This document shows, piece after piece, positions 4,706-54,037 of a stretch of DNA of 64,000 nt; within the stretch, counting starts at the first letter, position 1, and each line of letters opens with the position of its first letter. The notes beneath the pieces are model-generated. The model saw only the letters and a list, made by a program, of their open reading frames with translations. It was not told where the DNA came from and ran no database searches. A program made the position numbers and the translations under genes. Source of the DNA: Herbiconiux ginsengi (lineage in GTDB: Bacteria; Actinomycetota; Actinomycetes; Actinomycetales; Microbacteriaceae); NCBI RefSeq assembly GCF_900107435.1, contig NZ_FNPZ01000001.1:654960-718959 (forward strand), given 5' to 3'.

Positions 4706-5469
4706 CCGACGAGGGCACAGCGCGCTCCGCCGAGGCGACCTCTGCGGAGCCCGGCCCGCTGGACTCGCCTGACCCCACCGCGCCACCGCGTCGCCCCCGC
4801 GGGCGTGTCGTGATCGCCGGCGTCATCGCCGCGGTGCTCGTGGCCGTGGTGGCTTTCGCGGCAGGATGGCTCGCCGCGCCCCGGACGGCCACCCCCTCCG
4901 ACACCAGTGTCGAGGCCGGCTTCGCCCGCGACATGCAGCAGCACCACGACCAGGCGGTGCAGATGGCCATGATCGTGCGTGAGCAGACCGACGATCCTGA
5001 CATCCGACAGCTCGCTTATGACATCGCCACGACGCAGGCTCAGCAGTCGGGGCAGATGTACGCGTGGCTGAACTCCTGGAACCTGCCGCAGGCATCCTCG
5101 CAGCCCGCGATGACCTGGATGACGCAGCCGACGCTCTCGGGCGCCGGCTCCGACTCACACGAGCACGGCGGGGTCTCGGCCACGACGGGCGCGATCGATT
5201 CGAGCGGGATGAAGCCGGGCGACCCGATGCCCGGCATGGCCTCGGCCGACGACCTCGCGCGACTCTCGCAACTGACCGGTGTCGACGCCGAGCGTCTCTT
5301 CCTCCAGCTGATGATCGCGCACCACCTCGGCGGGGTCGAGATGGCCGAAGCCGTGCTCGACCGCACGACGAATCCGCTCGTCGTGCCCCTGGCGAAGGCC
5401 ATGACCTTCGCGCAGACGGGCGAGATCGACTACATGCGTCAACTCCTGGCCGCCCGCGGCGGCGCGTAG
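4702..5469 (+). CDS. DUF305 family envelope protein (ferritin-like fold)
   Basis: A 255-aa protein with a short cytoplasmic head, one membrane span near residues 33-55 and an extracellular DUF305 domain. The two His-rich motifs MQQHHDQAV (near residue 74) and IAHHLGGVEMA (near residue 205) are present, with Asp/Met-rich linkers. DUF305 proteins are four-helix ferritin-like proteins often found with copper-handling genes; metal binding is plausible but untested. It begins with GTG inside the stop region of the DUF3105 gene (GTGA overlap), a pairing seen repeatedly in actinobacterial genomes. It is convergent with the WxLIP-like gene, with only 20 bases between. Confidence 0.85.
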   Translation: MTDEGTARSAEATSAEPGPLDSPDPTAPPRRPRGRVVIAGVIAAVLVAVVAFAAGWLAAPRTATPSDTSVEAGFARDMQQHHDQAVQMAMIVREQTDDPDIRQLAYDIATTQAQQSGQMYAWLNSWNLPQASSQPAMTWMTQPTLSGAGSDSHEHGGVSATTGAIDSSGMKPGDPMPGMASADDLARLSQLTGVDAERLFLQLMIAHHLGGVEMAEAVLDRTTNPLVVPLAKAMTFAQTGEIDYMRQLLAARGGA

Positions 5470-5489
5470 CGCCTCGGCCGAGACCGGCG

Positions 5490-6572
5490 TCAGGCCGAGT
5501 GGGTCACCTCGGCGGAGGCCTTCGTCGCGGCGAGCGCCTGCTCCACCGCCTCCTGCACCCGTGCGTCTTCACGGGCCTTGCGTGCGGCCCGAGTGCGGCG
5601 GCGCACGATCACCGCGAGCACGATCAGCGCCGCGAGCACGAGCACGAGGATGACCAGGGTCCACGGCACCGCCCACCCGTTCGCGCTCGCCGTCACCGGG
5701 TCGAGACTGGTCGTCGATCCGGATGCGTCGAGCACGATCGGCCCGACCGTCGCGGTCGCGGTCAGCAGGAAGACCGGCGGCACGCCTGTCACCGGCACGC
5801 TCACCGTCCACGACTCGCCGGGGAGGAGCTGCGGCGGGGCCTCCACCTCGCCCGCATCACTCGGGAACCAGCCGAACGGCCCCGTGACTCCGGCGGCCTG
5901 CTGGGCCGAGACGACGGCATTGCCGGTGTTGTGCAGGGTGTAGCCGATCACGGCGTCGCCCGCCGCGAACGGCAGCCATCCGCCGTCGTAGTCGACATGC
6001 ATGTTCTCGATGGCGAGCGCCGGGGCGAGATCGCCGCCGATGCGCAGGGAGATCTTGATGCCGAGGCGCCGGTCGACGTTGATGCCCTGCTCGTCGTCGG
6101 CCTGGGTGAGCGAGGTGACGATGGCGCCCGCGTAGTCGCCCGGGGTGGCATTCTGCGGAATGGTCAGGGTGAACGGCACATCGGCGGTGGCGCCGGGCTC
6201 GAGGTGCACCGTGGGATTCGCGGTGTGCACCCAGGCGCCGATGGCGGTCGACTCGGCCCCGCCGACGACCACGTCGAACTGGCCGCTGTCGGTGGTGTAG
6301 CCGTCGGCGGCGTAGACGCCGAGATCGAGCGGTGTCGTGCCGTGGTTCGTGACGACGAGGGTGTCGTCGACGGCTGCGCCCGGGTCGAGCGCGAACGTGT
6401 AGCTGGTGCGGTCTGTGCCCTGGTCGGTCGTCGCCGTGCGCACCGCCCAGTCGGCGTCGCCGTCGGCCGCGTGCGCCGGCATCGCGGGCAGGAGCAGGGC
6501 GCCCAGCGCGACGGCCGCGGTGGCGGCCAGAGCGAGAGCGGCGCGGGTGGAACGGGCCAGAGACACGGTCAT
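5490..6572 (-). CDS. WxLIP-like (DUF916-type) cell-surface membrane protein
   Basis: A 360-aa protein with a signal peptide ending at PAHA, two extracellular beta-sandwich domains (about residues 38-165 and 170-285), a single membrane span near residues 296-320 (LVILVLVLAALIVLAVIV) and a charged cytoplasmic tail. Segments such as DDTLVVTNHGTTPLDLGVYA and LEPGATADVPFTLTIP in the first domain match the peptidoglycan-binding domain of WxL-interacting proteins; the overall order is that of WxLIPs, which in Firmicutes hold WxL-domain proteins at the wall. It lies 94 bases downstream of a phosphatase ending in a WxL-like domain on the same strand, which supports that role. The pairing is inferred, not shown. 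Confidence 0.75.
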   Translation of the reverse strand: MTVSLARSTRAALALAATAAVALGALLLPAMPAHAADGDADWAVRTATTDQGTDRTSYTFALDPGAAVDDTLVVTNHGTTPLDLGVYAADGYTTDSGQFDVVVGGAESTAIGAWVHTANPTVHLEPGATADVPFTLTIPQNATPGDYAGAIVTSLTQADDEQGINVDRRLGIKISLRIGGDLAPALAIENMHVDYDGGWLPFAAGDAVIGYTLHNTGNAVVSAQQAAGVTGPFGWFPSDAGEVEAPPQLLPGESWTVSVPVTGVPPVFLLTATATVGPIVLDASGSTTSLDPVTASANGWAVPWTLVILVLVLAALIVLAVIVRRRTRAARKAREDARVQEAVEQALAATKASAEVTHSA

Positions 6573-6666
6573 GGAATCCTCGTCGGGTGGGTTGGTGGGT
6601 GGAACGGGATCGTGCCGGATGGCGCGGGGCTGGTGGCCGCCGCACCATCCGGCACGCGGTTCACGC

Positions 6667-8661
6667 CTAGCTGCTCAGCGCAGTCAGGGTGAGGGTGGCG
6701 CGGTAGCTGCCCGAGTCGACCAGACCGGGGATCTTCAGCGCCAGGTCGGCGCCGACCTTCGCGGTGCCACGCTCGTGGCCCTCGTCGGCGAACGACAGGC
6801 CGCGGGAGACCGACAGGCCCTGTCCGCTGTCGTAGCCCGTCGGGATCGCGGCGCCGGCGGTGGCGCCCGCACCCTGCTCGATCACCTTCGGGGTCCAGCC
6901 GAGGTACTTGCCGGAGAAGGTGTTCGTGCCGTCGCGGAAGTCGCCGACCGAGGCCGAGATCGACCACGGAGCGAGCGACTGGCGGGTGTCGGTGACGACG
7001 ATCGGGTTGATCTGCCCGTTCGCCTCGAAGTAGTCGCCGTCGTGGTCCACGGCGGTGCCGAGGTCGACGAGCGTGTTGCGGCCGTCGATCTTCCAGCCGA
7101 ATTCACCGGGGGCGGCCGTGGGCACGGTCACCGCGATCTCCTGGTTGTCACCGTGGTTCTGGTGGATGGTGACCGCGTCGACGACGGAGCCGACCGGCTG
7201 GGCCGGGGTGGCGCCGCTGTCCGGCCCGCACCACGGCACGTTGCCGAGCTCGACCGCGGCGTTGGGGGCGTCGCACGTGCCGCTGCGGATGTTCTCGACC
7301 ACGAGCTGGTCCTTCTGCACCTGCACCTTGACGTAGCTGCGCACGTGCTCCTGGTTCTGCACCGAGTTGTACCAGTAGCTCTGCGGGTTCAGCGGGTCGG
7401 CGCCGTTCCCGGCTCCCGAGGTGCCGCTGTCGTCGGGCGCGGTGATGTCGTAGTACTTCGAGCCGGAGGCCGAGTTCGCGGTGACGTAGATGACTCCGCC
7501 GGGGCCGGGGAAGACCTCGTTCTGGCCGGGCTGCTCATCCGGGTTCGCCTTGGCGCCGTTCTTGATCTCGTAGCTGCGCGAGTAGCTGTGGTCGTGGCCC
7601 TGGAGAACCAGGTCGACGCCGAGGTTCGAGAACACGGTGGGGAAGTCGATCTTGCGCTGCTTGTTGTCGCCGTCCTTCGCGTGCGCGGCCGGCGAGTAGA
7701 TCGAGTGGTGGTACACGAGCACGGTGTACTTGGCCTCGGCGCCGTGCTGGTTCACGACGTCGGTGACGTAGCCGACGTGGGCGTCGTCTCCGCCCCCGCC
7801 CTGCGAGGTCTTGTAGCTGTTGCTGTTGAGGTCGATGAACAGCACGTCCTTGTAGATGTACCAGTAGTCGCCACCCGAGGTGTTCGAGGTCGGCTGGCCG
7901 TTGGAGTAGTAGGCGGCCGAACGGTCGGTGTTCGGCGTGAACAGGTGCTGCTCGTACGCCTTTCCACCCACGTCGTGGTTTCCGATCGTGGCGGCCCAGG
8001 GGTACTGGCGCAGCTTGTCGGGGGCGAGGAACGCGTCCCACTGGATCTCGGTGTTGGCGGTCTCGACCTGGTCGCCGCCCGACACGAGGAGTTCGGCGTT
8101 CGGGTTGGCGGCCAGCGACACGTCGAGCGTGTCGGTCCAGCCGGCCTGGTCCTTCGCGAGGTTGCCCGACGAACCGATCTGCGGGTCGCCGTAGAACAGG
8201 AAGTCGTAGTCGCCGTCGAAGGTGCGGGTGTTGAAGGTGTAGGCCTGCGACCAGCCGTCGACCGAGCCGACGCGGTAGGAGTACGCGGTGTTCTCGGTCA
8301 GGTCGGTGATGGTGGCGTGACGGTTGAAACCACCGCTGGAGGCGATGTTCGCTGCGCCGAGAGCCGAGAAGGTCTTGGCGTCGGCGGGGAACTGGCCGTT
8401 GGAGACCGCTGCCGTCGGCGCGAGCTGCACGACCTGCGTCGTGTCGGCCGAGGAGTACCAGGTGACGATGCGCTGTGATTCGTCTGCACCGACGCCGAGG
8501 ATGATGCCGGTCAGGTTGACCGGATCGGCGGCGTGAGCCGGGGTGGCCGCGAAGGCGCCCACCAGGGCCGAAGTGCAGAGCGCAGCTGCCGCAAGCCACG
8601 CGGTCGCGCGGGTGGCCGCGCGCCGGGGTCGTGCAGGTGCAGTGAGAGTTGACATTCTCAT
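6667..8661 (-). CDS. Secreted purple-acid-phosphatase-like metallophosphoesterase with WxL-like C-terminus
   Basis: 664 aa: signal peptide (cleavage after THAAHA-type AHA), an N-terminal fibronectin-like PAP domain (about 30-165), a metallophosphoesterase domain (about 170-470) and a C-terminal ~170-aa beta domain. Metal-binding motifs are complete: GDPQ, GGDQVE, GNHD, VYHHSIY and GHDHSYSRS. The enzyme probably removes phosphate from extracellular phosphomonoesters. The tail, with APWSISASVGDF, YLGWTPKV and ending SGSYRATLTLTALS, resembles WxL domains rather than carrying a sortase signal or membrane anchor. The gene is followed by the WxLIP-like gene. Two in-frame ATGs (8661 and 8655) are possible starts. 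Possible alternative: a 2',3'-cyclic-nucleotide phosphodiesterase-like enzyme. Confidence 0.85.
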   Translation of the reverse strand: MRMSTLTAPARPRRAATRATAWLAAAALCTSALVGAFAATPAHAADPVNLTGIILGVGADESQRIVTWYSSADTTQVVQLAPTAAVSNGQFPADAKTFSALGAANIASSGGFNRHATITDLTENTAYSYRVGSVDGWSQAYTFNTRTFDGDYDFLFYGDPQIGSSGNLAKDQAGWTDTLDVSLAANPNAELLVSGGDQVETANTEIQWDAFLAPDKLRQYPWAATIGNHDVGGKAYEQHLFTPNTDRSAAYYSNGQPTSNTSGGDYWYIYKDVLFIDLNSNSYKTSQGGGGDDAHVGYVTDVVNQHGAEAKYTVLVYHHSIYSPAAHAKDGDNKQRKIDFPTVFSNLGVDLVLQGHDHSYSRSYEIKNGAKANPDEQPGQNEVFPGPGGVIYVTANSASGSKYYDITAPDDSGTSGAGNGADPLNPQSYWYNSVQNQEHVRSYVKVQVQKDQLVVENIRSGTCDAPNAAVELGNVPWCGPDSGATPAQPVGSVVDAVTIHQNHGDNQEIAVTVPTAAPGEFGWKIDGRNTLVDLGTAVDHDGDYFEANGQINPIVVTDTRQSLAPWSISASVGDFRDGTNTFSGKYLGWTPKVIEQGAGATAGAAIPTGYDSGQGLSVSRGLSFADEGHERGTAKVGADLALKIPGLVDSGSYRATLTLTALSS

Positions 8662-8823
8662 CCGTTCTCGTGATCACGATGTCCCACGGGGCGTGGGCGT
8701 TTCACATGATTCGCGCGGGAGGAGAATTCGACATGAACGTCGACTGCCGTACGCGTTTCCGACCCGGGAATGGTTCTCGGCGAATTCTCAGCTTTGTGAG
8801 TTTGCTTCATGTGCAGCAACTTT

Positions 8824-10044
8824 CTAACCGATCCCGAGAAGGCGCTGTACGAACCAGATCAGTCCGGCCACGGTCACCGAGACGGCCAGCGCCCCGGTGG
8901 CCCAGAGACCGAGCCGGGGGGCGCGCCGACGCAGCAGCACGAGCAACGGGAACACGATGGCGATGATCGTCAGCTGCACCACCTCGATGCCCACGTTGAA
9001 CACCAGCAGCGACCAGAGCAGCGTCCACGACCAAGGCTGATCGATGCCGAGTGCGCTCGCGAAACCGAGCCCGTGCACCAAGCCGAAGGCGAAGACGACG
9101 AGCAGCCGCAACCAGCCGGCTCGATCGAGGCCGAGCGGGCCGCTGGTCGAGTCGAGCTCGGTGGCGGCGGCACCACGGCGCCAGAGCCGCCAGAGATACC
9201 AGGCAGCCACGATCGAGATGGAGATGGCGATGATCGGCTCGATGATCGCGGCCGGCACCGTGACCACGCCCGTCGCGGCCAGGATGAACGTGACCGAGTG
9301 CGCGATCGTGAACGCGGTCGCAGCCAGCACGACTTCGCGCAAGCGACGCGATCCGGCGATCAGTGCGAGCAGGAAGAGGATGTGGTCGATGCCGGTGAGC
9401 AGGTGCTCGGCGCCGAGATGGAAGAACTCCCAGAACCGCTCGAAGAAGCTCTGACCGGTCGAGAACGAGGGCTGAGCGGCGTCGAGCGACGCGCTGCCCG
9501 TGCGCCCGTCGATGTCGTAGGAGACGATGGTCTTGGTGCCGGTCACGTACTGTTCGGAATCGGGGAACAGCGCCGAGCGGATCACGTGACCATCGCCGGA
9601 ATCGGTGCAGCGGAGATCGAGCACGAGCACCGCGTAGGGCGCGCCTTCTTCTTCGGTCATGGTGATCGGCTCGGTGACCGCGGTGTCGCACACCTCTCCG
9701 GAGGGTGTCGCGACCGTGAAGCGCTCGTCGACGTAGGCGAGCACGGAATCGAGGTGACCCTCCAGCGCCTCGATCTCGGCATCGGGATCGCCTGCGTCGA
9801 ATGCATCGGTGCCGGCCCGGAACAACGGGTCGTCGCCCTCGGCATCCGCGGCGGAGACGACGAGCAGGTCGTATTCGAGCCGCAACTCCGCCTGGAGGTC
9901 TCCAGCGTCATCGGTGCCGAGGTCGACCAGCACCACCGAGGAGAAGCCGTGCGCCGATGCCGCGGCGGGAGCGCCGGCCAGGGCGGCGAGCCCGATCAGG
10001 GCCGCCGCCAGGAGGAGCAACGGTCTGCTCGCGTGCTTGCTCAT
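8824..10044 (-). CDS. HupE/UreJ family membrane protein
   Basis: A 406-aa protein: signal peptide, ~170-aa extracellular domain rich in Asp/Glu (two Cys in CDTAVTE and LRCTD may pair), then about six membrane spans with the HupE/UreJ_2 signature motifs HLGAEHLLTGIDHILFLLAL, FTIAHSVTF and FGLVHGLGFA. Conserved His/Asp/Glu in these spans are thought to bind a divalent metal; family members are linked to nickel, cobalt or copper handling. No hydrogenase or urease gene is in the window, so a specific nickel role is not supported. It is upstream of the PAP gene on the same strand with 162 bases between, and divergent from a lipoprotein gene. Confidence 0.85.
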   Translation of the reverse strand: MSKHASRPLLLLAAALIGLAALAGAPAAASAHGFSSVVLVDLGTDDAGDLQAELRLEYDLLVVSAADAEGDDPLFRAGTDAFDAGDPDAEIEALEGHLDSVLAYVDERFTVATPSGEVCDTAVTEPITMTEEEGAPYAVLVLDLRCTDSGDGHVIRSALFPDSEQYVTGTKTIVSYDIDGRTGSASLDAAQPSFSTGQSFFERFWEFFHLGAEHLLTGIDHILFLLALIAGSRRLREVVLAATAFTIAHSVTFILAATGVVTVPAAIIEPIIAISISIVAAWYLWRLWRRGAAATELDSTSGPLGLDRAGWLRLLVVFAFGLVHGLGFASALGIDQPWSWTLLWSLLVFNVGIEVVQLTIIAIVFPLLVLLRRRAPRLGLWATGALAVSVTVAGLIWFVQRLLGIG

Positions 10045-10248
10045 GGGTGCCCTTCTGCCGATCCGCGACGTTCAGGCTGACCTCAGGTGGTGAACGGATT
10101 GCCGACCGAAGAGGAACGTCGCGCGAACAGTCGACCGTCGGCAGGAGGACACGACCTGTCGTGCGCCAGGCTGGGGTGCGACCGGCGGCTGCTGTCCCCT
10201 GCTGTCCGCCACCGTTCGATCCCGTCCGCCATCGGAGGAAGAATCCCG

Positions 10249-10911
10249 TTGCGCCCGCACCCGAAGACTCTCGCATCTCTCACGGTCTCCCTCCTGCTCG
10301 CCGCGTTCCTGAGCGGATGCTCGGCCGGCGACTGGAGTCAGCCGCACGCGATGCCCACCGCCGTCGGTGCGCTGGGCGACGGCTTCCTGCCGGCCGACCC
10401 GCCCAGCCCCGAGGCGACCATCGATCCCACCGAGGGTTCGTGGAACGACGTGCATCCCTCAGCCGGCCTACGGGTGGTGCTGCTCTGGGCCGGCGACGGC
10501 GATGCCGAGGACGCCATGACCGGTGCAGTGCGCTCCTGGGCCCACGACGAGCAGGTCGACCTCCGGGAGGTCGAGGCGGGAGCGAACCCCATCGATTCCG
10601 TCGTCGAAGCGATGCAGATGCAGCCCGACCTCATCATCAGCGCCGGCAACGACCTCATCGATCCGCTGGCCGCCGTCACGGCGAGTCACCTCGATCAGCA
10701 ATTCCTCGTCATCGGGGCCGAACTCGCCGAGCCGACGGAGAACGTCACCGCCGTGGACTGGACCGGGGCGGCGTTCCGCGGTGAAGGGCTCGGTGCGTCG
10801 TCGCACTACGACCCCGCGACGTTCACTCCCGAGCGGTGCGCGGCCGCGGTGCGGGCGGGGATGGCCGCCGTGCTGCACGACGAGACCGGCATCGTCATCT
10901 GGATCGACTGA
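10249..10911 (+). CDS. Lipoprotein with BMP/periplasmic-binding-like fold
   Basis: The TTG at 10249 is chosen because GGAGGAAG lies just upstream and because the protein then starts with a normal lipoprotein signal: charged MRPHPK, a hydrophobic stretch, and the lipobox LSGC (Cys near residue 24). The 220-aa mature part has a half-Rossmann pattern (LRVVLLWAGDGDAEDAM, PDLIISAGNDLIDPLAAVTA, QFLVIGAEL) like the BMP family of type 1 periplasmic binding proteins, although shorter than transporters' binding proteins (~330 aa). No permease genes are adjacent, so an ABC transport role is not supported. It is divergent from the HupE gene. Function unknown. Confidence 0.75.
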   Translation: MRPHPKTLASLTVSLLLAAFLSGCSAGDWSQPHAMPTAVGALGDGFLPADPPSPEATIDPTEGSWNDVHPSAGLRVVLLWAGDGDAEDAMTGAVRSWAHDEQVDLREVEAGANPIDSVVEAMQMQPDLIISAGNDLIDPLAAVTASHLDQQFLVIGAELAEPTENVTAVDWTGAAFRGEGLGASSHYDPATFTPERCAAAVRAGMAAVLHDETGIVIWID

Positions 10912-11246
10912 CGCGCGCTGCCCAGTGCGGCTCAGCGGCCACGGTGTCTGCGGGCGCAGGGCAGCGTGCGGGGGCCAGGCGCGTCGCCGAGCGCAGCCTC
11001 AGCGCGCGACGTCAGCGCGGGGGCAGGCGCCTCACCGGGCACCGGTCAGGAGCGTCACCGGGCGCTGGTCAGGCGCGTCACCGAGCGGAGCCCCACCAGG
11101 CGCGGCCTCAGCACCCGATGTCACCAAGCGCCGGGGCGGACGCCTCACCGGGCACCGGTCAGGCGCGTCACCGAGCACGGCCACGCCAGGCGCGACGTCA
11201 GCGGACACGACTGAGCGCGTCACCGAGCTCGGGTTCGGGCGTGGGG
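10912..11246. repeat. Non-coding degenerate tandem-repeat tract
   Basis: This gap between the convergent lipoprotein and recQ genes has no credible gene. It consists of imperfect copies of a ~21-23-base unit of the form CGGTCAGGCGCGTCACCGAGC (for example at 11043-11063, 11066-11086 and 11156-11176), arranged in a higher-order copy: the stretch around 11030-11050 recurs at 11143-11163, a 113-base shift. Some copies are degraded. It could be a recombination remnant, a protein-binding array, or decayed coding repeats; none can be favoured from sequence. Confidence 0.7.
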
Positions 11247-13394
<2,148 letters not shown>

Positions 13395-13519
13395 GTGTCG
13401 AGCCTAGTTCGCGCTGCCGACATCCGGTCGCTGTCCACAGGAACGATCGGGAGGCGACATCCGCACCCCCGCTGTGCAGGAGTGGACGTCGCGTGAAGCA
13501 CCCGCGTGCGACACCGGCG

Positions 13520-15331
13520 TCAGCGCGACAGCGCGACCTCGACGATGCTCGGCCAGGCCGGCGGCGAAGCCAGCACAGACTCGAGGTCGGAACGGAAGGC
13601 GACGAGCCGGTGCTCCCAGCCGTAGGCCGAGGCGAGCGATGCCAGCGACACGCTCTGCGGGGTGTACAGCACCCGGTCGAAGGCATCCGGATCGGCCGTC
13701 GCCGCCACCTCGAGGCCGTCGAAGATGGTGCCTCCGCCGTCGTTGCCCACGACGAGCTGAATGCGCGGACGCGCCTCCCCCGGCGCCAGGAGCAGTGCGC
13801 CCACGTCGTGCAGCAGGGCAAGGTCGCCGAGGAGCACCCGGGTGGCGCCCACTCGAGTGGCACCACCGCGGCGACCCGCGGCCTGACTGGCGAGCGCGAC
13901 ACCGATCGCGGTCGAGATCGTTCCGTCGATGCCGGCCAATCCGCGGTTCGAGTGCACCGGCACCTTCTTGCCGGGTGCTGCGGCATCGAGTTCGCGGATG
14001 AGCCGCGATGCTCCGAGCACCAGTCGGTCGTGCGGCCAGCTCGCCCGCCACACCGCGAGTGCGAGCGACCGCCGCGTGATCGGCGCCCGCAACGCGGCGA
14101 GCTCGGCGCGGGCGAAATCGCGCTGCCCGGCGAGGTCTCCGGAGGCTCCCGCGTCGACGAGCGGTGCGGCCACTTCGTCGGCGGCGCCCTCGAGGAGTTC
14201 GCGGCTCGCGAAGACCCACTGTCCCGTCCAGGCGCGGGCCGCGCGATCGGATCGGTCTTCCGGATCGGTCGTCACCGCGTCGACGACCACGGCGTCCGGA
14301 TGCGGCAGTACCGCTTCTCCCGGCCCCCGCACCACCACGATCTCGACCCCGTCGCGGCGCAGCAACGCCGGAATCTGACGGCTGAGCGTCGGATGCCCGA
14401 ACACGACCGCCCGTTCGACCCGCCCTCCGAACTCGGCGTGGTCGAGCAGCTCGCGGTAGGCCGCGACGAGGTTCGGGCCGAAGCGCGCGCCGCTCGACAC
14501 CTCGGCGAGCAGCGGCCACCCCGCGGCCAGCGCCAATTCGTTGGCGGCGGGCCCCGCATCGGCACCCGCGATCACGACCGTGCGCGGCCCCTGGGCGAGA
14601 TGCAGCGAGGCGGCGGCAACAGAGCGGGCGGGGCCGCCGGAGCGCCCCGATACGCCCTGCTCGGCGGAGGCACCAGACTCGCCGAGTGCGCCTGGTTCGG
14701 GAGCGTCGGATGCGCCGGGTTCGGTGGCCGCGCCGGCGCTCCCCGATGCGGCGCTCGCGGGCCGCGCATCCGGCTCCTCCACCGTCCCGGAGAGCGGCTC
14801 CACGAACTGCAGGTTCAGGTGAACCGGGCCCGAGTCGGCGCTCGTCGCCGTCACGAACGCGAAGGCGGCCAGCTCCCGCGCATCCGGAATGCCGCCCGGC
14901 GTCGGCTGCGGCGCCGGCACGTCCCGCTCGGCGTGCACGAAACGGCCGAAGAGGCCTGGCTGCCACGTCGTCTGGTTCGAGCCCGTTCCCCGGAGGGCGG
15001 CTGGCCGGTCAGCCGTGAGCACGATCATCGGAACCCCGGAGTGGTGCGCCTCGACCACGGCGGGCAACAGGTTCGCGGCAGCGGTACCGGAGGTGGTCAC
15101 GACCAGGGCGGGCCTGCCGCTCTCCCGGGCGATACCGAGAGCCGTGAACGCCGCCACGCGCTCGTCGATGCGCACGTGCAGCGTGATCCGCCCCTGCTTC
15201 TCGAGCTCGGCGAGCGCGAGCGCGAGCGCCTGCGAGCGCGAACCGGGCGAGACCACGGCGTGCTCCACCCCGAGTTCGGCGAACGCGCGCACGAGCCGGG
15301 TGGCGAACGTCGCGGCCGGGCTGGCCGTCAC
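13520..15331 (-). CDS. menD: 2-succinyl-5-enolpyruvyl-6-hydroxy-3-cyclohexene-1-carboxylate synthase MenD
   Basis: A 603-aa thiamine-diphosphate enzyme that adds the succinyl-semialdehyde unit from 2-oxoglutarate to isochorismate, the first committed step of menaquinone synthesis. The N-terminal VVSPGSRSQALALAL segment, the SGTAAANLLPAVVEA block containing the conserved region, and the C-terminal NRGLAGIDGTISTAIG and LLGDLALLHDVG cofactor-binding segments are diagnostic. A Pro/Gly/Ala/Glu-rich insertion near residues 180-215 is a low-complexity linker. The GTG start overlaps the TGA of the upstream PLDc_N gene (GTGA), so translation is coupled. The other men genes present lie 2.3-8.5 kb to the right. 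Confidence 0.95.
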   Translation of the reverse strand: MTASPAATFATRLVRAFAELGVEHAVVSPGSRSQALALALAELEKQGRITLHVRIDERVAAFTALGIARESGRPALVVTTSGTAAANLLPAVVEAHHSGVPMIVLTADRPAALRGTGSNQTTWQPGLFGRFVHAERDVPAPQPTPGGIPDARELAAFAFVTATSADSGPVHLNLQFVEPLSGTVEEPDARPASAASGSAGAATEPGASDAPEPGALGESGASAEQGVSGRSGGPARSVAAASLHLAQGPRTVVIAGADAGPAANELALAAGWPLLAEVSSGARFGPNLVAAYRELLDHAEFGGRVERAVVFGHPTLSRQIPALLRRDGVEIVVVRGPGEAVLPHPDAVVVDAVTTDPEDRSDRAARAWTGQWVFASRELLEGAADEVAAPLVDAGASGDLAGQRDFARAELAALRAPITRRSLALAVWRASWPHDRLVLGASRLIRELDAAAPGKKVPVHSNRGLAGIDGTISTAIGVALASQAAGRRGGATRVGATRVLLGDLALLHDVGALLLAPGEARPRIQLVVGNDGGGTIFDGLEVAATADPDAFDRVLYTPQSVSLASLASAYGWEHRLVAFRSDLESVLASPPAWPSIVEVALSR

Positions 15332-49900: not shown

Positions 49901-51393
49901 AGCACGGTCTGACCCGGCAGCACGACGGTGTTGCCGTCGTGCGCGGTCGACGACCCGGGCGGGCCTTCGAACTGGTAGGCGGAGTATCCCGAAGGCTGCG
50001 CTCCCTCGGCCGTGGTGAGGGTGTTGCCGGCCTCTCCGGTGACGCCGGAGAAGAGCTTGTCGAACGTGCCGGAGCTGCGGACGTTGGTGTTACCGGCCCG
50101 AGTGTTGTTCGAGGGGTCTTCTCCTTGGTTGGGATTGCCCGCGATATCGGTGGCGACGACGTTCGTGTAGGTGTTCCGCCAGTTCAGATTCGAGACGCCG
50201 TCGACGGTGCTGCCGAGGTCGGTGACGGCTTCGAGGGGCAGTTCGAGGCGGACGGTCGTCGACACGACGAGCCCCATGTCGGCAGGAAGCGCGAGGCCGT
50301 CCTGCGACTTCGTCGGAACCGTGAAAGCGGTCGTGTCGGTGTCGGTGAACACGATGTCGACCGGGGTTCCGAGCGATGTCTGCTGGCAGGTCGCCGTGCC
50401 GTTGTTCCGGACACTGTTGACATTCGTCTCGCTGCCGCCGCTCGGGTTGGGCAGCGCGCCGTGGAGGTTTGCGACGCCGCCGTTGCAGAAGGCGAGGCGG
50501 GGTGCGTACTTGTCGAGTGCACCCGCGCCGGCCGCGAGCCAGGCGGCGGAGCTCGTGGTGCCCGGGCCGAAGAAGGCGTCGGGGCTGAGATCTTCGGTGA
50601 CGGTGATCGGCGATGCCAGAGGCGTGACCCCCTTGCCGCCGGAGGGACCATCGATGGTCAACGGGAAGTCCATGACGACGCAGGAGCGCGTGCTGTCGAA
50701 CGAGCACGCGCTGTAGTACTGGAAGAACGGACCGTCGGTGTCGCTCGCGCTGGCGAGACGCTTCGAGACGTCGAAGTCGGCCGCGGCGGACACGGTGTGC
50801 TGCACGGGCTCCGACGTCGCCGGAGTCGTGACCTGATCGCTCGTCGCCGACACCGTGACGGGGCCGAGGACGGTGCCGTTCGGAACCTCGGGGCGGACCT
50901 TCGAGAGGAAGTCGTAGTTCAACGACGTTCCCTGGTTCTGTGGTGCGACCACGCAATCGACCGATTGCGAGGGCAGCGACGTCCACGACGTCATCGTGGT
51001 CGGCACGACCGGGTCGGGAAGAGTCGCCGGAGTGAGGGTGGAGCCGGCAAGACAGAAGGGCGGCAGCGACACCAGCTCTTCACCCTGGGGCAGGCTGAAC
51101 GTCAGATGCGGCGCGGTCTGGTCGCCGCCCTCGTATCGGATTCCCACCGAATAGGTGATCGTGTCGTTCGTGCGGATGATGTCGTTGGTGGCGGACGAGT
51201 CGTGGCCGGCCGCGTCGTCGCCGTCGAAAGCCGCGGTGCCGGTGGTCTGATTCAGGGTGACGCTCAACGTCTCGCCGGCTGCGCCGGCGGGTGCGGCGAC
51301 GACGAGACTGCTGGCCGCAAGCCCCAGGATCGCGGCCGTGACGGCGACGAATCGGGGCGTTCGGTGGAGCTGTGGACGGGACGTCATAGTCAT
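46996..51393 (-). CDS. Large sortase-anchored repeat surface protein (SdrD-B, DUF5979-like)
   Basis: 1465 aa: signal peptide ending near PAGAAG, a long series of beta-rich domains (to about residue 1060) with paired Cys (e.g. FCNGG, CDVWDD, DCLPGYQ), an SdrD B-like repeat (SLGDVVWNDLNSNGIQDAGEPG, near 1065-1170), two DUF5979-like repeats (GGLVIVKDLTGAGV and AGTISVAKVLDG, to about 1410), a Pro/Thr/Ser linker, an LGNTG-type sortase signal, a span and RRRRSSEQQ. It is covalently wall-anchored, possibly an adhesin or matrix protein. AAGAAAGG precedes ATG 51393 (51387 is an alternative). Its upstream shares a two-block element with the 35-aa gene at 51679. Confidence 0.85.
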   Translation of the reverse strand: MTMTSRPQLHRTPRFVAVTAAILGLAASSLVVAAPAGAAGETLSVTLNQTTGTAAFDGDDAAGHDSSATNDIIRTNDTITYSVGIRYEGGDQTAPHLTFSLPQGEELVSLPPFCLAGSTLTPATLPDPVVPTTMTSWTSLPSQSVDCVVAPQNQGTSLNYDFLSKVRPEVPNGTVLGPVTVSATSDQVTTPATSEPVQHTVSAAADFDVSKRLASASDTDGPFFQYYSACSFDSTRSCVVMDFPLTIDGPSGGKGVTPLASPITVTEDLSPDAFFGPGTTSSAAWLAAGAGALDKYAPRLAFCNGGVANLHGALPNPSGGSETNVNSVRNNGTATCQQTSLGTPVDIVFTDTDTTAFTVPTKSQDGLALPADMGLVVSTTVRLELPLEAVTDLGSTVDGVSNLNWRNTYTNVVATDIAGNPNQGEDPSNNTRAGNTNVRSSGTFDKLFSGVTGEAGNTLTTAEGAQPSGYSAYQFEGPPGSSTAHDGNTVVLPGQTVLSNLYSTQNIPVNTGTQFSASKIVCDVWDDTKLGLPATFAYAGSTNTVVQIPSNGAPVWVSGYHHNNSTYNADTSMLPNLTIQYGSTPTPGSGADSDCSTGTWYDSAAAVPGATLVNGLWQGVNRVRVSFSTTASNTDQQVEVNTSIALTVLATAGAQGTILPNWASIIEAKGVKSRDAVLADPEATNSVSSYAPETNNGGLGDRLIVGQAVARIKKFVKNPDSGDYTDTAVPQYSAGSAIDYRLNPSLTASSSATGSFADVTVEDCLPGYQSFVSSTRESGAPITPVVTQLGSPAGAGITCAADETYVKWDLGQNEINAPIDPILYTVEVLATVRNGVYTNTTLVTSSGDPSPVSARTDTAQVQIVVPTGIKIAKSVDKSTVEVTPAGAVTPRGFTWTIDFANIDSPQNVSDVDVIDVLPANGLGGTHFTGTLALDAVTPTGATTGITTLYTADPSAVLQVDPSDPTNGSAGTTVWCDAPTGGSVVSGAGTSADCPTSLAQVTGLRFLRAGAFTPDDQLTIAVSMSPSGNSAADVYENRTSGRVVGVTQPVGPAVRAVTVVASSLGDVVWNDLNSNGIQDAGEPGVANVPVALTGTDVDGNAVSATTTTDANGNYLFADLASGTYVVTFDPAWVAAHNFAFTLEAQGTDGQTDSNANVTTGATGDIVLGIDENRVDIDAGLVQLVGGLVIVKDLTGAGVANAAGPFEFSIECSYLDQSVYSGTVSLERTGDDTTLRSDRIGGIPVGASCVVTETDSGGADTTPAPVTVTIVTNSDDNTVIAGIVNEFSAGTISVAKVLDGTAATDPVVTAKTFTILVTCQIAVDGEADPVTLFSGDLSIKGGQNLTLVDGNDAPVLLPLGTVCFGVETDDGGAAKAVVDHDSFENGVVVTSGTPETLQELQLTATNTFDLTPPTPTPSTGSPVAEGGPAVLGNTGLAIGGTITLIGLLIAGGLALLLIRRRRSSEQQ

Positions 51394-51416
51394 GCCTTTC
51401 TTGGTCCCCGACGGCG

Positions 51417-51503
51417 ACTCACATCGCCTGATATCAGCCCTCATCCTGTTGGCGGGATCGCCGGATTCGCCGATTTTCCCGGTACTCACCCCTTAATTCA
51501 CCC
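51417..51503 (-). promoter_or_regulatory. Two-block upstream element of giant surface gene
   Basis: Block A (51417-51448, minus strand starting CAGGATGAGGG, ending GATGTGAGT) and block B (51484-51503, GGTGAATT-AAG-GGGTGA) are separated by 35 bases. The same blocks, with the same spacing, occur at 51835-51919 in front of the 35-aa gene. Block B has GGTGA as a direct repeat at 11 bases spacing and lies about -55 to -75 from a likely start in block A, a usual place for an activator site. Confidence 0.6.
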
Positions 51504-51678
51504 GGTCGGGTGGAGGGGGCGGCGACGCTGCGGATGCGCGTCGCTTTCAGAACGAGGGCGAAGGGCGCGGCTCGGTCGGTGGGGGTTTCTCGTCACCGCG
51601 CCCTTCATGTGAAGAGACGGCCTGAGGGCCCGATCGTGACGCAGGATTCGCAAATCGGCGGAAAGAACGTTCGAGCGG

Positions 51679-51786
51679 CTAGCGGTGTCGGCGCAGGACC
51701 AGAGCCACGAAGGCGCCCACTGCGACCATGGGCGCGGAGACGATGGCGAGACCGAGGAACAAGCCGAGGCAGTCGTGTGGAACCAA
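51679..51786 (-). CDS. Small membrane protein (35 aa), TTG start
   Basis: MVPHDCLGLFLGLAIVSAPM followed by VAVGAFVALVLRRHR, then TAG. One hydrophobic span with a basic end and one Cys near the start. GAAGGAGA lies three to ten bases before the TTG, as strong as that of katA, which supports real translation. Its upstream region shares a two-block element with the giant surface gene, suggesting common regulation. Function unknown; small single-span proteins near surface genes may act as signal or assembly factors. Confidence 0.5.
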   Translation of the reverse strand: MVPHDCLGLFLGLAIVSAPMVAVGAFVALVLRRHR

Positions 51787-51834
51787 GACTCTCCTTCAGT
51801 GCACAACGGACGGGGAGTGATGGGGATGCGAGCG

Positions 51835-51919
51835 ACCCACATCGTCTGAATACCCTCATCCTGAAGCGTTGGTCGGTCAGCTCAAGCGAATGCGGGGCAG
51901 TCACCCCAAAATTCACCCC
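51835..51919 (-). promoter_or_regulatory. Two-block upstream element of 35-aa gene
   Basis: Block A (51835-51863) and block B (51899-51919) match those at 51417-51503 in sequence (CAGGATGAGGG...CGATGTGGGT; GGTGAATT-TTG-GGGTGACT) and in the 35-base distance between them. The conserved A/B spacing is stronger evidence than each block alone. Confidence 0.6.
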
Positions 51920-51957: not shown

Positions 51958-52164
51958 TCATCTGTGATGCCTCCGCGCGAGCTCGCGGGTGACCATCGGG
52001 CCGAGCCATTCGAGCCGCATCGCCTCGCTGCGCTCGGTGGTGGGATCTGCACGGAGGTCGAGGATGAGGTCTCGCAACCGGGACAAGTCGTCATCGGCGA
52101 TCGTGTGCAGCCGAATCTGAGTATGCGGGGTGTGGAGCACGAGCGCGGGGAGATCGACATCCAT
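51958..52164 (-). CDS. Hypothetical small protein (68 aa)
   Basis: MDVDLPALVLHTPHTQIRLHTIADDDLSRLRDLILDLRADP, then TTERSEAMRLEWLGPMVTRELARRHHR. It is soluble and charged, with no membrane segment or recognised domain; a HTIADDDLSRLRDLI stretch suggests helix. No good ribosome-binding site is visible. It lies between the LuxR-type regulator (stop 87 bases upstream) and the 35-aa gene, on the same strand. Real coding status is moderate. Confidence 0.45.
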   Translation of the reverse strand: MDVDLPALVLHTPHTQIRLHTIADDDLSRLRDLILDLRADPTTERSEAMRLEWLGPMVTRELARRHHR

Positions 52165-52250
52165 TCGCCCATCGTCTGCTCGATCGCGGTGAGGTTCTAC
52201 GGGAGGCTGGGTGAAAGATCGGGTGATCCCTTCACGGAAGAGGCCACCCG

Positions 52251-53816
52251 TCAGAGGAGCCCGTGTCGGGTGACGATGTCGATCGCCTCGGTCCGGTTCG
52301 CCGCACCGACCTTCCGGTACGCCGCCCGCAGTTGGCTCTTGACGGTGTTCTGGCTCACGTAGAGCCGCGCGCTGATCTCCGGCACCGTCGCGCCCTTGGC
52401 GAGCTCCGCGAGAACGAGTCTCTCCCGCCGACTCAATCCGCTCGGCGCGGCCGCCACGGGGAACACCCCTTGCTCACGCACCAGCGTGACCAGGGGATCC
52501 TCGTCGGAGAGACCGATGAGCTCGGCGAGATCGTCGAACGCATCTCTCGGGATCGTGGTGAACGCATACGGAATGTGCCGGTCGCGGGCGACGACCAGCG
52601 CCTGCTCCCCGGCCAAGCGCGCATCCGCGACGCGATCGGAACGCAGATACGCAACCGCCCGGAGCAGTAGCGCCTCGACCAGCACGCGCGGAACGACGGC
52701 AGCAGCCGGGAGGAGGGCATCGGCCCGCCGCGAGACCTCGGCCAGATTCCCGGCCATCAGGTCGATCTTGGCGCGCGTGACGTCGAGGAAGAACGTCGAG
52801 GGCTGGAACCGCAGGTCGACCTGATCGATGACCTCCCGCGCTCGAGCGGGCATCGCCAGCACCAGGAACAGCTCCGCCCGGCCGACAGCGAGGAACTGCG
52901 CGTTCAAACCTCTCGACACCAGCTTCGGAGGGCGGATGGTGACCGCGGTGTCGATCTCGGAGAGCACGTTCCAGGCCTGCTCGGGAGACACACAGAGCCT
53001 CGCTCGCAGGTACAGGATCGCCGCCCAGCACTCCGGGGCGGCCGAGACGTCGATGATGACGTCAAGCAGTCGCCCGGCCCCCTCGCGGTCGAGATTGTCG
53101 ATCCGGTCGAAGATGCGGGCGAGTTCGGCGGGTGCCCCATATCGTCGCGTCGCCCAGTTCGCGGTGTCCAGGGGCGGAACGCGATCGAGCCATCGCTGCG
53201 CGATCGCTTTATGTCCCCCGATCATGTGGATCCATGCGATGTTGCCTGCCGCCGTATCGCGGATGAGGTCGTTCCCGGTGACGACTGCGAGGTCGTAGGC
53301 GTCCTGGTATTCGGCGAGCGCCAACGGGAATTCTCCCGCGAGCTCGTGCACTCGACCCCATTGCGCGTGCAGATCGGGGATCGCGTAGTGCAGATCCTTG
53401 AAGCTGTCCGGGTTGGCGGCGTCGAGTTCGACGTGGGCCTCCGCGACCTCTTTCGCCGCCGCCTCGTACTCGCCCTCGCTCCGGTGCGCAGCCGCCCTGC
53501 TGGTCAGGTCGACCAGCACGTCGACCAGTTTCGTCGGTGTCGGCGCGGTGCTGAGATACCGGTATCGGTCGTTCCGGGCGGCCTCATCGACCGGAAGGTA
53601 GTTCACGTAGTTGCGAGCCGCATCCCACCGCGGATTCTCCGCGAGCACCTCGTCGGGCAATTCTCCCAGCGCTTGCCGGAGCAGAGCCGGATCCGAGAGC
53701 AGCAGCACCGACCAGTTCTCGCTCAGCAACTGCTGCAGGGTCACCCAGTCGGATGACGCCGCCGCGTGAGCGATCTGATCATGGAGGAGATGGGCATTGG
53801 TCGTCGGGTTGGCCAC
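52251..53816 (-). CDS. LuxR-type transcriptional regulator
   Basis: A 521-aa protein: long helical N-terminal region of TPR-like repeats (for example YEAAAKEVAEAHVELDAANP, LALAEYQDAYDLAVVTGN), and a C-terminal LuxR/GerE helix-turn-helix (LSRRERLVLAELAKGATVPEISARLYVSQNTVKSQLRAAYRKVG). No receiver or ATPase domain is present. GTG 53816 is preferred because GAAGG lies seven bases upstream; GTG 53888 is an alternative. It is on the same strand as the downstream 68-aa, 35-aa and giant surface genes; it is the best candidate to bind the paired upstream elements. Confidence 0.85.
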   Translation of the reverse strand: MANPTTNAHLLHDQIAHAAASSDWVTLQQLLSENWSVLLLSDPALLRQALGELPDEVLAENPRWDAARNYVNYLPVDEAARNDRYRYLSTAPTPTKLVDVLVDLTSRAAAHRSEGEYEAAAKEVAEAHVELDAANPDSFKDLHYAIPDLHAQWGRVHELAGEFPLALAEYQDAYDLAVVTGNDLIRDTAAGNIAWIHMIGGHKAIAQRWLDRVPPLDTANWATRRYGAPAELARIFDRIDNLDREGAGRLLDVIIDVSAAPECWAAILYLRARLCVSPEQAWNVLSEIDTAVTIRPPKLVSRGLNAQFLAVGRAELFLVLAMPARAREVIDQVDLRFQPSTFFLDVTRAKIDLMAGNLAEVSRRADALLPAAAVVPRVLVEALLLRAVAYLRSDRVADARLAGEQALVVARDRHIPYAFTTIPRDAFDDLAELIGLSDEDPLVTLVREQGVFPVAAAPSGLSRRERLVLAELAKGATVPEISARLYVSQNTVKSQLRAAYRKVGAANRTEAIDIVTRHGLL

Positions 53817-54037
53817 TTCTACACCTTCGGGCTCGCTCCTGCGCCCGGGGCGCGGGAAGGTCAAAAGAGCATTGACGACGTCGGTCACGACCGCGGTCTT
53901 TGCTCATGGAACCCCACCCACCGCTGCCGACTATATCCGTCGGAGGCGCATGAGCACGAGCACGAAAACGCATCCATTTCGGCAAGTTCGGTGTCCCGTG
54001 CCATCCAACCCGTCATTGGAGTGACGTACTCGCCGCT

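Follow-up and report, generated by a model that had tools for sequence, protein, structure and literature searches.

The closest described systems to the locus studied here are those of LuxR-type activators and of one response regulator that also reads direct repeats. In enterobacteria, the MalT regulon is governed by a LuxR-type activator with a TPR-like body, which reads short G-rich half-sites in direct repeat, placed over the -35 region of promoters of sugar genes. The MalT core half-site is given as GGA(T/G)GA in two reports (PMC7567727, PMC9628970). As set out in the first of these, the actinobacterial MalT of Actinoplanes sp. SE50/110 (ACSP50_3915) has the half-site GGATGA, arranged there as a palindrome (TCATCC-5nt-GGATGA) that overlaps the -35, and the motif serves one 51-gene region (PMC7567727). 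The second describes the sites of the Streptomyces LAL regulator SCO6993 as inverted repeats without a consensus and LALs as acting on antibiotic genes (PMC9628970). Finally, the PHO box of actinobacteria, read by the phosphate response regulator PhoP, is described in a further report as a direct repeat of 11-nt units with the unit GTTCACC (PMC4415409).

We analyzed a stretch of 64,000 nucleotides from Herbiconiux ginsengi, a member of the Microbacteriaceae (here referred to as the window), in which a LuxR-type regulator gene, a 68-aa frame, a repeat (box 2), a 35-aa frame, a hairpin, a second repeat (box 1), and a gene for a giant surface protein follow one another on the minus strand (Table 1). 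The earlier note had reported two upstream regions here that share two sequence blocks at an identical distance of 35 bases. Both blocks are indeed present in both regions, and GGTGAATTNNNGGGTGA has two occurrences in the 4.85-Mb genome, both at this locus. The distance is likewise the same in the two copies, at 37 nt (end of GGTGA to CAGGAT) rather than 35: each GGTGAATTNNGGGGTGA lies exactly 37 nt before CAGGATGAGGG. The GGTGA repeat, said to be 11 bases apart, has its starts 12 bases apart. What had been described as a single block A exists in both copies as two blocks, CAGGAT and the following CAGNCGATGTGNGTCGC, which stand 3 nt closer together in one copy than in the other. Across the window, GGGTGAA pairs at periods of 8 to 18 reach at least 13 of 14 matching positions at period 12 only, at three places within 0.75 kb. 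The third of these, box 3, which the earlier note had not reported, is inverted and has no TAnnnT 36 to 40 nt downstream.

Table 1. Positions of features in the window and of the other loci discussed (window coordinates count from its first letter; loci outside the window have their own numbering).
Locus	Feature	Coordinates	Strand	Remarks
Window	Giant surface protein gene, 1465 codons	46996..51393	-	ATG at 51393; SdrD_B and DUF5979 domains
Window	Leader block CAGGCGATGTGAGTCGC	51414..51430	-	Second part of block A; exact only here and at 51832-51848
Window	Candidate -10 CAGGAT, giant promoter	51443..51448	-	37 nt after GGTGA, 36 nt after GGGTGAN
Window	Box 1, GGGTGAATTAAGGGGTGAG	51485..51503	-	12-bp direct repeat 5' of giant; 13/14 to GGGTGAA-N5-GGGTGAA; GGTGAATTNNGGGGTGA at 51502-51486, letters GGTGAATTAAGGGGTGA
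Window	Hairpin	51560..51606	-	Between 35-aa frame and box 1; -26.6 kcal/mol, z -5.0
Window	35-aa membrane-protein frame	51679..51786	-	TTG start, AAGGAG just upstream
Window	Leader block CAGACGATGTGGGTCGC	51832..51848	-	Exact-match partner of 51414..51430
Window	Candidate -10 CAGGAT, promoter of 35-aa frame	51858..51863	-	
Window	Box 2, GGGTGAATTTTGGGGTGAC	51900..51918	-	12-bp direct repeat 5' of 35-aa frame; 13/14; GGTGAATTNNGGGGTGA at 51917-51901, letters GGTGAATTTTGGGGTGA
Window	68-aa frame	51958..52164	-	Upstream of box 2, after the regulator gene; perhaps not a true gene
Window	Box 3, GGGTGAAAGATCGGGTGAT	52209..52227	+	Inverted; between LuxR stop and 68-aa frame; 13/14
Window	LuxR-type regulator gene	52251..53888	-	C-terminal GerE HTH (Pfam GerE, 2.3e-13), putative TPR-like helical body
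L092 (window genome)	Second, shorter copy of the C-terminal region of the giant	7816..9609		About 44 kb before the window; 58% identical to the window giant over 397 residues; gives no promoter information
L093 (G010)	Broken LuxR remnant without HTH	6194..6809		Divergent from the giant ortholog
L252	Array of at least three units at 12 bp	8019..8079		Overlaps the end of a predicted opposite-strand frame; may be a coding tandem repeat
L276	Array of at least three units at 12 bp	8001..8031		
L283 (G064)	LAL gene, box, 1741-codon LPDTG giant, sortase-like gene (by eye)	5319..13933		
G457	Short LuxR, box, giant			
G349	Short LuxR, box, LAL, large surface protein			Surface protein cut by region end
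G297	Box, giant, box, LAL, box			
G257	Box, giant, box, LuxR, then sugar transferase			
G097	Box, giant, LAL			

The box resembles the sites of the MalT regulon in its direct repeat of short G-rich half-sites and in its neighborhood to a LuxR-type protein with a possibly TPR-like body. It departs from them in that GGGTGA(A) is one base off the half-site GGA(T/G)GA, in its 12-bp period, in ending about 37 nt before the -10 where the MalT site lies over the -35, and in its targets, which are surface proteins rather than sugar genes. The Actinoplanes regulator is also an actinobacterial MalT-like LuxR protein, with a palindromic motif there and a direct repeat here, and several of the box-bearing clusters described below have regulators of the class to which the Streptomyces LALs belong.

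CAGGAT is best read as the -10 of both window promoters, so that block A would be mainly the -10 region. Scanning for sigma-70 promoters gave no hit at the locus, and no -35 was identified. We rejected block A as a general second operator: other sites have only a -10-like hexamer there, and exact matches to the CAGNCGATGTGNGTCGC leader block are confined to the two window sites (with up to two mismatches allowed, 33 matches against 19 for the reversed pattern). That confinement is what a local duplication would give, and the pair could be a duplicated promoter of no special function, or a chance resemblance. Against this, the 37-nt linkers of the two copies are identical at only 12 of 37 positions, their middles having diverged while ends and spacing are kept, and the same geometry is found in many genera. 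We consider duplication or chance an extremely improbable account.

The giant encoded behind box 1, read by eye from its translation, has an N-terminal hydrophobic stretch, a C-terminal LGNTG (a variant motif), a hydrophobic span, and an RRRR tail. It has the predicted makeup of a sortase-anchored surface protein, with signal peptide, LPXTG-like motif, hydrophobic span, and basic tail. Behind box 2, the 35-aa frame has a GC3 of 0.83 against a GC2 of 0.43 and one hydrophobic span with a basic end. The view that this tiny frame is a real gene is plausible, with a box promoter, AAGGAG, and hairpin in its favor, while the loci searched held no relative of it. If the box works, a transcript of the frame is likely; the hairpin behind it perhaps acts as a terminator, and no terminator with a T-run was found there. 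The 68-aa frame has no Pfam match and no relative in the loci searched.

The gene upstream on the same strand had been called a LuxR/TPR regulator. The protein was aligned with 9 relatives. Its LuxR part is borne out by the GerE match (Table 1) and by a profile whose C-terminal end matches PDB chains of LuxR/NarL-type HTH domains; for its TPR part, there is a Pfam TPR_2 match below the cut-off, and a single-sequence model is all-helical and poor (mean pLDDT 54.9). Pfam gave no hit to an ATPase (STAND) domain, and we therefore do not file this protein as a LAL. The LuxR gene's own promoter has no box, and in the upstream regions of 24 LuxR genes, GGTGA-N7-GGTGA was present at G005 and G014 only. 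The window genome is rich in orphan regulators, with 46 GerE domains in its 4.85 Mb, and several of these GerE proteins are relatives of the window regulator (22 matches).

Beyond this genome, 149 relatives contain 11 matches to GGTGAATNNNGGGGTGA, spread over 9 of them, and a set of 398 same-family genomes contains 25, spread over 22; the reversed pattern had no match in either set. Pooled, these matches represent 28 distinct places, of which 12 were judged by eye to be promoter-like and 16 not; a LuxR HTH lies on the same strand within 12 kb at 8 of the 12 promoter-like places and at none of the 16 others, with some regions ending at contig ends. The general pattern GGGTGAA-N5-GGGTGAA (period 12) has 131 matches in 90 of the 398 genomes, and its reverse has 4. 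Period 15, which keeps the reading frame as period 12 does, gives 43 matches in 41 genomes (reversed, 10), and period 11 gives 62 in 45 (reversed, 9). The share of 3-kb loci that are intergenic-like is 24 of 29 for period 12, against 10 of 29 for period 15 and 21 of 30 for period 11, where “intergenic-like,” like “giant” below, is a heuristic based on reading frames, third-position GC, and hydrophobicity. The suggestion of a small dedicated regulon does not survive this result, since many genera of the family have the box. The repeats are head-to-tail, sometimes in arrays of at least three units at 12 bp (L252 and L276) (Table 1), and not of the inverted-repeat form of NarL/GerE-type operators.

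Spacing to a putative -10 is a second constant of these sites. Among 71 distinct intergenic-like period-12 sites, 26 have a TAnnnT that begins 36 to 40 nt after the box (15 of them at 38 nt and 8 at 39 nt), against an expectation from base composition of about 0.3 per position; none of the 71 has one at 20 to 35 nt, and 45 have none at 36 to 40 nt. The window hexamer CAGGAT sits 2 nt nearer to the box than the commonest spacing elsewhere.

This geometry bears on whether the box could be a variant PHO box bound by PhoP. The PHO unit GTTCACC is the reverse complement of GGTGAAC, making it a near-identical 7-mer in direct repeat on the other strand. PHO boxes, however, have 11-nt units, phosphate genes as targets, and no -10 at a fixed distance, whereas the window and the enriched sites have period 12. 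In the family genomes, period-11 half-sites precede PiT transporters and PstS-like proteins (by eye) without a -10 at 36 to 40 nt (TAnnnT was absent there from all 21 intergenic-like period-11 loci), and no phosphate gene was seen behind period-12 sites in the target lists. Period and targets led us to reject the box as a PHO box, and the variant reading is very unlikely. The PHO boxes of the family are these period-11 GGGTGAA repeats, which a single base of spacing sets apart from the period-12 box. Such repeats before PiT- or PstS-like genes were observed at L316-L321, L326, L329, L331, L337, and L339.

To characterize the genes behind the box, we used 60 regions from the 131 matches, taken in roughly listing order with some near-duplicate genomes skipped. 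Counting units less than 40 nt apart once, they hold 64 distinct sites, 54 intergenic-like and 10 coding; because these include orthologs from related genomes, genera are stated as well. By a strict automatic test, a giant surface protein lies directly 3' of the box at 15 of the 54 intergenic-like sites, from 10 genera, and at none of the 10 coding sites. Conversely, the 60 regions hold 17 giants, 15 of them directly behind a box, and 288 kb of control regions contain no giant, the controls being 17 regions around GGTGAATNNNGGGGTGA-pattern matches, one of which (G008) is itself promoter-like. Three further giants missed by the strict test were judged real by eye (L267, L283, and L291). Domains of the scanned giants include DUF11, DUF7507, SdrD_B, SpaA, and DUF5979. 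In the GGTGAATNNNGGGGTGA set, boxes precede giants in the window, G097 (~2670 aa), G101 (1420 aa), G153 (2600 aa, with a second, looser box before a 1561-aa giant), and G257 (~1220 aa), whose domains include DUF11, SpaA, DUF5979, and bacterial Ig families. When giants were chosen by similarity alone, 17 of 20 had no box at 13 of 14 positions or better, with some starts uncertain (L298) or near a contig end (L312), and the box therefore marks a subset of giants.

Other genes are also found behind boxes: a sugar transferase gene preceded by two tandem boxes (G115), LAL LuxR genes (L245, L281, and L240), Tat-like secreted proteins (L268 and L271, by eye), and many genes without an assigned name. 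A box before a hydratase-like gene in G249 (by eye) means that not all targets are surface genes. In the window's own genome, boxes also precede genes for an 88-aa protein and a 54-aa membrane protein, with start codons 6 to 7 nt after TAGCGT. These two cases matter for the notion that the conserved blocks act in RNA, as a leader element, and not as a DNA site. A conserved block does lie in the predicted leader of both window genes, yet the box itself is upstream of the predicted start, and the two own-genome targets, starting 6 to 7 nt after the -10, have no leader left. Of all the accounts weighed here, we regard this one as the least probable.

Conservation in relatives, which the earlier note had named as a check, has a mixed outcome: the box recurs across the family, but the nearest relatives of the window giant are without it. 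The closest are in G010, at 68% identity, and in Agreia sp. Leaf283, where the best segment reaches 71%, and no box was found upstream of either. In Agreia sp. Leaf283, the neighboring LuxR gene is absent, and a DUF222/HNH gene takes its place. As two cases lacking both the box and an intact LuxR gene, G010 and Leaf283 would fit joint loss.

Who reads the box is suggested by what adjoins it. A LuxR HTH lies at most 1 kb upstream on the same strand at 6 of the 54 intergenic-like sites, in six genera, where 0.19 would be expected (Poisson P of ~6e-8) from a mean density of 7.1 per Mb, based on 232 GerE domains counted in nine genomes that were picked mostly as box carriers. Within 8 kb on either strand, the figures are hardly different, at 14 of 54 intergenic-like and 2 of 10 coding sites, and the signal is one of 1-kb adjacency. 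Regulator, box, and giant occur in one cluster in seven genera (the window, G457, G349, G297, G257, G097, and G064) (Table 1), and LAL genes with AAA hits are present in other clusters, unlike the window regulator. The cleanest cluster is that of G064, a reduced genome of 1.4 Mb with two GerE domains and one exact box, which starts 24 nt behind the LAL gene and has CAGAAT at 38 nt.

Close adjacency, shared clusters, the G064 arrangement, and a half-site one base from the MalT core make a MalT/LAL-like LuxR protein the likely reader; that the actinobacterial LAL and MalT sites reported so far are palindromic counts against such a reading of a direct-repeat box. Alternatively, the box may be a genuine activator site of one unlinked regulator outside the LuxR family, with the LuxR genes as fellow members of the regulon. 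This would accommodate the 40 of 54 intergenic-like sites that have no LuxR HTH within 8 kb, and the LuxR genes that themselves lie behind boxes. It leaves unexplained the position of the 6 boxes just behind a LuxR gene, which target status does not account for, as well as the adjoining of sole box and sole LAL gene in G064 and the resemblance of the half-site to the MalT core, and we think it rather unlikely.

We consider it likely that a MalT/LAL-like LuxR activator binds the box as its upstream site. Two HTH domains in head-to-tail orientation would each read one GGGTGAA half-site, 12 bp apart. Relative to the predicted start, the box would span about -49 to -67, a class I position. The promoter to which the bound protein would recruit RNA polymerase has a -10 (CAGGAT in the window, often TAnnnT) and no clear -35. 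In the window, the LuxR-type protein would most likely activate the giant and the 35-aa membrane protein as two transcripts, and the inverted box 3 may have a feedback role. Family-wide, the giants predicted as targets would mostly be of the sortase type; further targets would be sugar transferases, the LuxR genes, and certain secreted or small membrane proteins. At the level of sequence, the box, its 12-bp period, its spacing to the -10, and its association with giants and adjacent LuxR genes are firm; from these, we infer that LuxR proteins bind the box, that binding activates, and which regulator goes with which site. The proposal that block B is regulatory can be kept: it has the behavior of a regulatory element, is associated with LuxR regulators and with giant surface proteins, and is found again in other genomes.

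In open-access PubMed Central text, we recognized no description of this box or regulon, or of the switching of actinobacterial giant surface protein genes, and the box is probably the mark of a so far undescribed circuit that controls the bacterial surface. With our confidence evenly divided, we propose more broadly that orphan LuxR proteins of the MalT kind, some having an ATPase domain and others not, may run a family-wide surface-coat regulon. Here, a 12-bp box at a fixed distance from the -10 would switch on sortase-anchored giants and, in some species, sugar transferases, with feedback on the regulators; regulator, box, and giant would form one module, which tiny membrane proteins such as the 35-aa protein would join, and one base of spacing would separate it from the phosphate regulon. 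The box can now be told apart from the look-alike PHO box, and its defined period and fixed -10 distance make the regulon searchable in any genome of the family. G064, with its single exact box adjoined by one LAL gene and one giant, offers a simple test system, and orphan LAL and TPR-LuxR regulators gain a concrete class of likely targets.
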